Shown here piece by piece: positions 1 through 41,597 of a stretch of 41,597 nucleotides of DNA. The notes beneath the pieces are model-generated. The model made no database searches and was not told the origin of the DNA. It was given only the letters and a program-made list of their open reading frames with translations. Within the stretch, counting starts at the first letter, position 1. Each line of letters begins with the position of its first letter. Origin of the DNA: a virus. The stretch covers positions 1-41,597 of the IMG/VR virus record IMGVR_UViG_3300005563_000016. One strand, given 5' to 3'. Made by a program: the position numbers and the translations under genes.

Positions 1-70
1 TCCTGGATCACCGGCAGCCCCGCGCTCACGACCGCACCGGCTTTCGCTCGAACGGGTCGGGCATCTCGAT
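1..70. repeat. Left copy of 70-bp terminal direct repeat
   Basis: Bases 1-70 are identical to 41528-41597. The gene at 26-760 ends inside this copy, and its upstream neighbour across the junction (41180-41518) lies at the other end of the window. The repeat therefore marks a circular or circularly permuted molecule. Its short length is what an assembly overlap would give; a true short terminal redundancy is the alternative. Confidence 0.95.
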
Positions 71-9167: not shown

Positions 9168-9238
9168 TCGCGGTCTGGAGAGTCGAACTCCACTTGACTG
9201 GCTTATGAGGCCAGTTTGCCGTCCCCGGCTGCACCGCG
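9168..9238 (-). tRNA. tRNA-Met-like gene (anticodon CAT), short D arm
   Basis: Reading the minus strand from 9238: a 7-bp acceptor (six pairs and a G-G mismatch at position 7), a D arm reduced to GCC/GGC with a 6-base loop, a perfect 5-bp anticodon stem CTGGC/GCCAG around the loop CTCATAA (anticodon CAT at 9205-9207), a 5-base variable region, and a perfect 5-bp T stem with loop TTCGACT. CCA is not encoded. The D arm is about three bases shorter than normal, and position 8 is C instead of U. It could be an elongator, an initiator or a lysidine-type Ile tRNA; CAT alone does not decide. Confidence 0.75.
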
Positions 9239-37491: not shown

Positions 37492-37884
37492 TTAGACCCC
37501 CTTCGCCGTCAGCTCGTAGACCGCATCCCGCTTGCGGCCGGGCGAGAGCGTACGCGTCACCTCACCATCGGTCACGAGTCGGAACAGGGCCCCGCTCGCA
37601 GCGCCACGGGAGACCTTGGCGACCACCGAGACCTCACCCGCCGTCATGGCTCCCAGGCGACGCAGGGCAGCGCGCACCGCGGGGCGGCTACCCACTCGGC
37701 CCTTGTCGGTCGGAGCGGGCGCCAGCGTCTGCACGGGGGCCTTCCCACCCAGCACCGCCAGAGCCTCCTCCGTCTCTGCTACGAGCGCTTGGGCGGCCTT
37801 GTGCTCTGCCTCCAAGATGGCCCGTAGGGCGGTCTGCTTGTTGGCGATGTCGCGCTGGAGTTCCTCGATCTTCGGGTTCTTCAT
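37492..37884 (-). CDS. Coiled-coil plus winged-helix protein, 130 aa
   Basis: N-terminal heptads (KIEELQRDIANKQTALRAIL; KAAQALVAETEEALAVLG) followed by a C-terminal winged helix (VRAALRRLGAMTAGEVSVVAK, SRGAASGALFRLVTDGEVTR, then LSPGRKRDAVYELTAKG as the wing). Probably a dimeric DNA-binding regulator. ATG 37884 has an AGGAAGGA site upstream and stands just downstream of the structured RNA block (37915-38081), so that RNA could control it. Confidence 0.72.
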   Translation of the reverse strand: MKNPKIEELQRDIANKQTALRAILEAEHKAAQALVAETEEALAVLGGKAPVQTLAPAPTDKGRVGSRPAVRAALRRLGAMTAGEVSVVAKVSRGAASGALFRLVTDGEVTRTLSPGRKRDAVYELTAKGV

Positions 37885-37914
37885 GTGTCTCTGTCCTTCC
37901 TTCACTACCGGGTA

Positions 37915-37940
37915 CCGACCTCGGAATCAGTCCGGGTCGG
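37915..37940 (-). other. Stable hairpin 3' of the tRNA-like RNA
   Basis: On the minus strand CCGACC/GGTCGG (6 bp) encloses a second stem CGGA/TCCG with loop CTGAT and a one-base bulge, ten pairs in all. It starts four bases after the tRNA-like element and ends about 30 bases before the winged-helix ATG. No U-run follows, so it is more likely a processing or regulatory hairpin than an intrinsic terminator. Confidence 0.55.
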
Positions 37941-37944
37941 CCTC

Positions 37945-38081
37945 TGGAGATGGCGGGGTTCGAACCCGCAACCACGCTCGCGCGTATCGTCTGGCCCTCG
38001 CTCGGGTAGCTACCCCCTCGTCCGACCAGCCGCGGTCACAGCGTCCCGTGACCCGAGCACGTCCACTCGTGCTGCATCCCC
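37945..38081 (-). ncRNA. Unusual 137-nt tRNA-like structured RNA candidate
   Basis: Non-coding, and bounded exactly by the stop codon of 38082-38465. On the minus strand GGGGATG (38075-38081) can pair with CATCTCC (37946-37952; one G-U), followed by a discriminator A. Next come CA, a D-like hairpin GCAC/GTGC (38057-38072), a hairpin GGTCAC/GTGACC in the anticodon-arm position (38034-38053), a palindromic GGGTAGCTACCC stem (38004-38015) inside CTGG/CCAG, a GCGA-tetraloop hairpin (37974-37985), and a perfect T arm GCGGG-TTCGAAC-CCCGC. The middle is far too long for a tRNA. An 8-bp helix (38000-38007 with 38051-38058) competes with the anticodon-position hairpin. A remnant tRNA 3' end (attP) is the main alternative. 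Confidence 0.55.
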
Positions 38082-38465
38082 TTACTCGTCTTGGTCCGCA
38101 AGCACGTCTTGCAGTGACCGTGCACGCTCGGCGCGGATCGTCAGCCTGTGGTGACGCGCATGGTCCACGCGGAGGACGACGGCGCGTAGCGCACGCTCGC
38201 TCGCCTCGTCCATGGACACCACGTCGCCGTCCTCGCGTTCGATCTTTGGCGACGGGCACACCTCGTTCACCCACCGCACGACCGCCTTGGCATCCGGCAG
38301 CCGCTTCATTCCCCAGATCAGCCGCGTGTTACTCGGCACGTGCGCGATGCTGAAACCGATGGAGTGCTCTGGACCGCGCGTCTTGTAACGGTGGGTGTAC
38401 ACGTCCGTTTCGTTGACCACCCACTCCCCCTTTCTGTACCGCTCCGGGCCCACCGTCGGTTCCAT
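38082..38465 (-). CDS. Hypothetical protein, 127 aa
   Basis: β-rich N-terminal half (GEWVVNETDVYTHRYKTRGP, HSIGFSIAHVPSNTRLIWGM) followed by helices (DAKAVVRWVNEVCPSP; SERALRAVVLRVDHARHH). No domain recognised. ATG 38465 lies directly after the stop of the 100-aa gene; the stop codon abuts the tRNA-like RNA. Confidence 0.68.
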   Translation of the reverse strand: MEPTVGPERYRKGEWVVNETDVYTHRYKTRGPEHSIGFSIAHVPSNTRLIWGMKRLPDAKAVVRWVNEVCPSPKIEREDGDVVSMDEASERALRAVVLRVDHARHHRLTIRAERARSLQDVLADQDE

Positions 38466-38466
38466 C

Positions 38467-38769
38467 TCAAGCCGCCTTTCCGTGGTTCTTGCCACCGCAT
38501 GAACAGTCGCAGGTGTGACCCTTGGCGCCGGTGCAGATGGCCGAGCAGACGACCTCAGCACAGAAGAATCCTTTGAGGAGCTTCGCGTCCATCTGACGGT
38601 CCGGGATGCAGCAAGTCACGTGCGGTGTCTTGTTGACCACCGGAACAGCCTCGCCAGCCTCAAGCCGAAGATGAGCCTTGCACGCCTTGCAGTTGAGGAT
38701 CCACGTCGACTTGAGCGGGCGGACATACTGAGCGGTCCAGGTCGGCTGCGTGTTCATCGTCGTCGGCAT
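38467..38769 (-). CDS. Cys-rich zinc-finger protein with CDCSCGGKNHG end, 100 aa
   Basis: Two cysteine groups: CKACKAHLRLEAGE near residue 27 and the C-terminal CTGAKGHTCDCSCGGKNHG. The latter motif is recurrent in small phage proteins of unknown function and should bind zinc. ATG 38769 lies six bases past a possible -10 element, so translation may be nearly leaderless; ATG 38757 is an alternative. Confidence 0.73.
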   Translation of the reverse strand: MPTTMNTQPTWTAQYVRPLKSTWILNCKACKAHLRLEAGEAVPVVNKTPHVTCCIPDRQMDAKLLKGFFCAEVVCSAICTGAKGHTCDCSCGGKNHGKAA

Positions 38770-41527: not shown

Positions 41528-41597
41528 TCCTGGATCACCGGCAGCCCCGCGCTCACGACCGCACCGGCTTTCGCTCGAACGGGTCGGGCATCTCGAT
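41528..41597. repeat. Right copy of 70-bp terminal direct repeat
   Basis: Identical to 1-70. Bases 41553-41597 repeat the last 15 codons of the 244-aa gene, so no extra gene is present here. Confidence 0.95.

Follow-up and report, generated by a model that had tools for sequence, protein, structure and literature searches.

The minus strand of a soil phage genome (41,597 nt in all, the whole stretch analysed, hereafter the window) carries a 137-nt element that is very probably a real tRNA-like RNA, with a fully canonical T arm, an acceptor stem bearing the signature of alanine and no usable anticodon. It is read here as a phage tRNA-like RNA without decoding function, a kind already known. 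The preliminary description, made from the letters alone, had located such an element on this strand, and both sequence and predicted fold agree with its position, length and tRNA-like character. Its parts and immediate neighbours are as follows.

38082..38474, minus strand: upstream same-strand gene, 130 aa from an inner ATG, without family match
37945..38081, minus strand: the complete element (137 nt), starting immediately after the upstream frame's TAA
38075..38081, minus strand: acceptor 5′ strand GGGGAUG, 7/7 pairing with CAUCUCC, one wobble (G3.U70)
38056..38073, minus strand: D-like hairpin (sequence and pair probability 0.98)
38034..38053, minus strand: H2 hairpin in the anticodon position, 8 bp and a 4-nt loop (predicted fold)
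37991..38029, minus strand: H3, a long hairpin with outer stem CUGGUC/GGCCAG, internal loops and an apical palindrome (predicted fold)
38006..38013, minus strand: apical palindrome GUAGCUAC of H3 (sequence and shuffle rarity of the motif)
37973..37986, minus strand: V-like (variable-arm-like) hairpin UACGC-GCGA-GCGUG, adjoining the T arm (predicted fold)
37953..37969, minus strand: T arm GCGGG-UUCGAAC-CCCGC, 17 nt, fully canonical (predicted fold)
37946..37952, minus strand: acceptor 3′ strand CAUCUCC (predicted fold)
37914..37941, minus strand: stable predicted hairpin immediately downstream, lacking a T run
37492..37884, minus strand: downstream same-strand gene with a weak match to a MarR-like winged helix that stays under the curated cut-off

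The minimum-free-energy and centroid folds agree on a 7-bp acceptor closing around five hairpins (D-like, H2, H3, V-like and T), with pair probabilities of 0.94-1.0 for the acceptor, 0.98 for the D arm, 0.99-1.0 for H2 and 0.80-0.91 for the T arm. The T arm and the acceptor with its single G-U pair, the D-like hairpin, the palindromic stem and the GCGA-loop hairpin had all been proposed beforehand and recur in these folds. So does a hairpin in the anticodon position lacking a usable 7-base loop, since H2 offers four loop nucleotides and no 7-nt loop with U33. The D-like hairpin has a 4-bp core stem, GCAC/GUGC (positions 10-13/22-25), and an 8-nt loop, GAGUGGAC, with GG at 18-19. Positions 8 and 14 in tRNA numbering are C8 and G14, deviating from the tRNA consensus U8/A14. 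The discriminator is A at 37945, followed by GAGG rather than an encoded CCA. The GG at 18-19, the palindrome of H3, the alanine signature and the same-layout RNAs of other phages described below extend the original description. That description had also envisaged a switch between alternative folds through a perfect 8-bp helix (38000-38007 with 38051-38058). The helix exists and clashes with H2; the switch finds no support, the helix being 6.8 kcal/mol worse, of zero ensemble probability and of a type found in 16% of shuffles.

The upstream gene ends in the TAA after which the element directly starts, as had been noted. The expected winged-helix gene on the other side is represented by a same-strand, MarR-like gene whose match is weak, and the hairpin at 37914..37941 may separate it from the element. 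A coding reading of the spacer was rejected: its (short) open frame does not show the distribution of GC over codon positions that marks the phage's genes. The record ends in a 70-bp direct terminal repeat (window 1-70 and 41528-41597), and a second contig, identical at every compared base, spans the repeat junction and gives a closed map of ~41.5 kb. Genome content is podovirus-like (internal virion protein, portal or head-tail adaptor, terminase). A conventional-looking tRNA with a CAT anticodon lies elsewhere in the window (9168-9238, minus strand). Positions 20000-41597 have no DNA-level match to cultured phages, and searches through the neighbour genes of the element return the same virus only. 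Relatives of the major head protein are 33-41% identical, except for two near-identical contigs, and their records, mostly fragments, contain no T arm in a tRNA-like context.

Dinucleotide shuffles of the upstream DNA served as the null for the rarity of the acceptor and D arm. A 7/7 acceptor partner within a total length of <=160 nt arises in 4.4% of shuffles, one with GGGG and a wobble at 3.70 only in 2.2%, and one accompanied by a D arm in 0.44%. The motif RUARYUA at the distance of H3 from the T stem occurs in 0.11%, a figure obtained partly after the fact. Overall fold stability is modestly unusual (z -1.76; 12/200 shuffles equally stable). The only close relative of the window is the second contig, which is 100% identical and thus carries no covariation information on the element itself.

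The sole acceptor wobble is G3.U70, which together with A73 constitutes the alanine signature found in tRNA-Ala and tmRNA. The third acceptor pair of tmRNA is completely conserved as G-U and is a potent determinant for AlaRS, which reads largely the acceptor and not the anticodon (PMC3985003). By these established rules, alanylation of the element is on balance to be expected. The element possesses what characterises a tmRNA reduced to its tRNA-like domain (TLD), namely G3.U70 and A73 in a 7-bp acceptor together with a canonical T arm. The deformed D loop of tmRNA and a match to the tmRNA covariance model are absent in Rfam comparisons; relaxing the threshold brings up a resemblance to tmRNA (8.5 bits) that is confined to the T arm. 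Exact matches to the 25-nt 3′ end occur across assorted bacterial taxa, in tmRNAs and one tRNA-Ala, and another viral contig has the same 25 nt within a complete tmRNA. The anticodon arm with 7-nt loop and U33 of a canonical tRNA is missing, and ARAGORN and Rfam at the gathering threshold (RF00005 included) call nothing over the element, in keeping with the initial view that it is neither a standard tRNA nor a full tmRNA. It shares arm order and alanine acceptor with class II tRNA and tRNA-Ala, and differs from them by its extra hairpin, its 137 nt and the lack of a standard anticodon arm. A nested 73-nt tRNA reading (GGGGGTA start) was discarded, its acceptor pairing only 6/7 and no D or anticodon arm being found.

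RNAs of the same layout were sought by pattern scans of viral contigs for intermediate-length RNAs with an acceptor and a T arm. A first scan served for discovery only; among the matches listed, the excess of closed acceptors was small after tRNA removal (8/44 vs 10/75). Analogues occur in contigs L066 (138 nt), L263 (130 nt), L224 (146 nt) and the group L048/L264/L261 (142-144 nt). The window has the arm order of this group, acceptor-D-H2-H3(RUARYUA loop)-V-T, and the position of its V-like hairpin is likewise occupied by a hairpin in the analogues. The H3 apex is palindromic throughout: GUAGCUAC in the window, UAGCUA in L066 and L263, and GUAAUUAC in L048, L264, L261 and L224. Within the L048/L264/L261 group, both partners differ in 13 of the 36 pairs; shuffles average 4.3 such changes, and slid controls never exceed 2. 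Three of the 13 lie in the acceptor. Since the scans selected for a 7/7 acceptor, covariation there is given no weight for any of the analogues; of the 10 informative pairs the T stem contributes three, and D, H2 and H3 together the other seven. The H2 loops of this group are UCCGGA, UCGCGA and UGCGCA, three different self-complementary hexamers at one place, as expected of a conserved loop-loop self-contact.

A covariance model of the L048/L264/L261 group gives L224 71 bits, L066 39 bits, L263 20.8 bits and the window 15.1 bits, the last two lying within the 14-26 bits that ordinary tRNAs and T-arm genes attain in that search. A MAFFT full-family alignment and the model alignment A4 were poor outside the ends and were left unused. 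The H3 motif is a post hoc observation, and the last scan made it a requirement. In T arms with this motif and without a conventional tRNA, a perfect acceptor closes 8/16, vs 12/97 for T arms explained by tRNA or tmRNA. The link between H3 loop and closed acceptor gives p = 0.011 without the two seeds and a Fisher p of 0.07 when homologues are also counted once, and is only suggestive. No proteins common to the window and the phages of L048, L066 and L224 were found in the contig DNA compared, and BLAST of the analogues against cultured phages returned no homologues except for a T-arm match. The layout common to these RNAs is suggestive; that the window descends from the same ancestor as the L048/L264/L261 group is unproven. 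L177 was rejected as a member, as it contains a nested ordinary tRNA-Ala.

Other short acceptor-closed RNAs of phages form a second group. In 12 of 15 phage contigs scanned they are recognised by the Rfam tmRNA model, with 53-76 bits over 99-140 nt; L033 likewise matches, at 56.9 bits. The short RNAs matching RF00023 are located at:

L158:176-305
L209:1092-1221
L174:5772-5902
L182:63-192
L193:3424-3543
L184:5989-6096
L178:449-567
L190:456-579
L163:602-719
L200:2911-3028
L191:9578-9676
L166:151-290
L033:5118-5246

At these lengths there is no room for an mRNA-like domain. No tag frame is evident in these mini-tmRNAs, for three of which ARAGORN proposes implausible tags; a 2025 survey counted just 9 'standard, no CDS' forms in 97,179 tmRNAs (PMC11915505). 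L158, L209, L174 and L182 have a conserved GATAACTGCCCAYGG core in common. The RF00023 family, mini forms included (L184, L193, L209, L158 and others), resembles the element of the window in G3.U70, A73 and T arm and, in the mini forms, also in length (99-140 nt). The mini-tmRNAs differ in carrying the tmRNA D-loop motif (GGUAUCGACAGG type) and in their scores of 53-76 bits, neither of which applies to the window. These scans suggest that tag-less alanine-type RNAs recur in phages; no SmpB gene was found among 30 such phage records (window included; several fragments). A separate set of tRNA-like genes (L185, L186, L196, L206, L210 and L175) shows a mostly canonical D arm, C70 and a ~50-nt insertion with a common GAGTTACTTC motif; they lie on contigs of 100-480 kb, and ARAGORN calls none of them. 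In the related viral contigs L249, L252, L253, L254, L258 and L262, tmRNA- or tRNA-type 3′ ends stand without a 5′ acceptor partner. These are probably attP cores and were used as negative controls.

Several other accounts of the element can be weighed against this evidence. The tRNA-like fold may act as mRNA punctuation, i.e. as an RNase P/RNase Z cutting site or a 3′-end stabiliser between two operon genes, as would suit its abutment on the upstream TAA, the stable hairpin and same-strand gene that follow, and the lack of any promoter or terminator called there on the element's strand. This account is rather unlikely: it leaves G3.U70/A73, the D arm and the elaborate H2, H3 and V hairpins unexplained, and in the layout analogues no stop codon of a long frame abuts the element. 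Less likely still is a self-dimerising structural RNA, in which the tRNA-like ends would serve to process and stabilise the RNA, and oligomers would form through kissing of the palindromic H3 loops (in relatives, of the H2 loops as well). Palindromes of the GUAGCUAC/GUAAUUAC type at the H3 tip of the window, L066, L263, L224, L048, L264 and L261 speak for it, as do the three different H2-loop palindromes of the last three. Against this, the loop of H2 in the window is not palindromic, and the H3 motif was spotted post hoc, demanded by the last scan and seen in few lineages.

The same H3 loop permits the element to be read as a degenerate or unusual tRNA-Ala, with H3 as an overgrown anticodon arm (loop GUAGCUA, U33 and anticodon AGC for Ala) and an extra hairpin after the D arm. 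The order acceptor-D-H2-H3-V-T is indeed that of a class II tRNA plus one arm, AGC fits the alanine acceptor, and L066 and L263 have the same type of 7-nt loop. However, purine 32 and U37 are irregular, the 7-nt register has a probability of ~7% in the window, relatives with GUAAUUA have no Ala anticodon, and no tRNA is called, all of which makes this reading improbable. A comparably low probability is assigned to an attachment-site remnant, the alternative named in the preliminary description, in which nothing but the 3′-terminal T arm and acceptor strand would be genuine, an attP copy of a host tmRNA or tRNA-Ala. The exact 25-nt matches favour it, and viral contigs with tmRNA-type 3′ ends lacking a partner 5′ strand do exist. 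Yet those attP-like T arms have no 5′ partner, whereas the acceptor and D arm of the element exceed chance; the 25-nt match spans assorted taxa and not one host, and a search of the self-closing record for tyrosine and serine recombinases, resolvases or integrases gave no match. Finally, a T-arm-like sequence may have arisen in a GC-rich spacer without any RNA function. The GC content (69%), the fold z of only -1.76 and the identity of the sole close relative would permit this, but the rarity of acceptor, D arm and H3 motif in combination, the full 17-nt canonical T arm and the presence of a non-coding spacer within a compact phage genome render it highly improbable.

Among described phage RNAs, the closest in size and make-up is T4 species 1 RNA (rnaC, 139 nt, NC_000866 70908-71046; L269:909-1047), which likewise has a V-like hairpin and then a canonical T arm at its end. 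It differs in its acceptor end, in a single long irregular arm that takes the place of D, H2 and H3, and in lacking the alanine acceptor signature. It has no match in Rfam, and the covariance model R1 scores it at 19.7 bits, the level of tRNAs. We know of no function for this RNA, whose tRNA-like reading may be worth a closer look. Bacterial YrlA Y RNAs are tRNA mimics that likewise hold a tRNA-like module inside a non-coding RNA; the element has no Rfam YrlA match. Identity as a Y RNA was dismissed, as no Ro60/TROVE gene is found in this phage or 14 other phage records; the partner could be a host gene.

The tmRNA of mycobacteriophage DS6A provides the functional parallel. According to later accounts, it is hardly more than a TLD (Mao et al. 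2009, via PMC4131195, PMC11915505), and a similar molecule, chargeable or not, is described there as strongly inhibiting tmRNA, perhaps via SmpB titration (PMC4131195; PMC11915505). Both the DS6A RNA and the element are phage-encoded, with an alanine-type tRNA-like domain and no tag reading frame. DS6A encodes a recognised tmRNA, whereas the element goes unmatched by the Rfam tmRNA model, has three additional hairpins and carries a D arm of the tRNA type.

The reading preferred here, plausible though held with reserve, is that of a processed, probably alanylated, non-decoding pseudo-tRNA serving as a decoy of the tmRNA/AlaRS/EF-Tu machinery. The element would be transcribed together with its neighbour genes. 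By established rules, RNase P would cut at G1, directly after the stop codon, and 3′ trimming and CCA addition would follow. Host AlaRS would then recognise G3.U70 and A73 and charge the RNA, which could not serve translation because it has no usable anticodon. During infection the charged molecule would occupy AlaRS, EF-Tu and possibly SmpB without decoding and so, in the manner of the TLD-only DS6A tmRNA, either weaken host trans-translation or compete for the alanine machinery. Since its D arm is of the tRNA type and not the deformed tmRNA type that contacts SmpB, the SmpB route is weakened, and AlaRS or EF-Tu perhaps fit better as targets. The decoy role itself, drawn by analogy, is tentative.

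The few unrelated viruses with same-layout RNAs suggest, as yet without proof, a little-noticed class of phage decoy RNAs. More speculatively, unrelated phages may possess undescribed 130-147-nt alanine-charged, non-decoding pseudo-tRNAs, possibly dimerised via the self-complementary H3 loop, that jam host ribosome rescue or alanine charging. Tag-less tmRNA- or tRNA-like phage RNAs have so far comprised one tested example (DS6A) and the T4 stable RNAs. The present scans suggest that they are frequent in phages and are missed by standard callers. If such RNAs do receive alanine, host ribosome rescue or alanine charging would be a recurrent target of phages.
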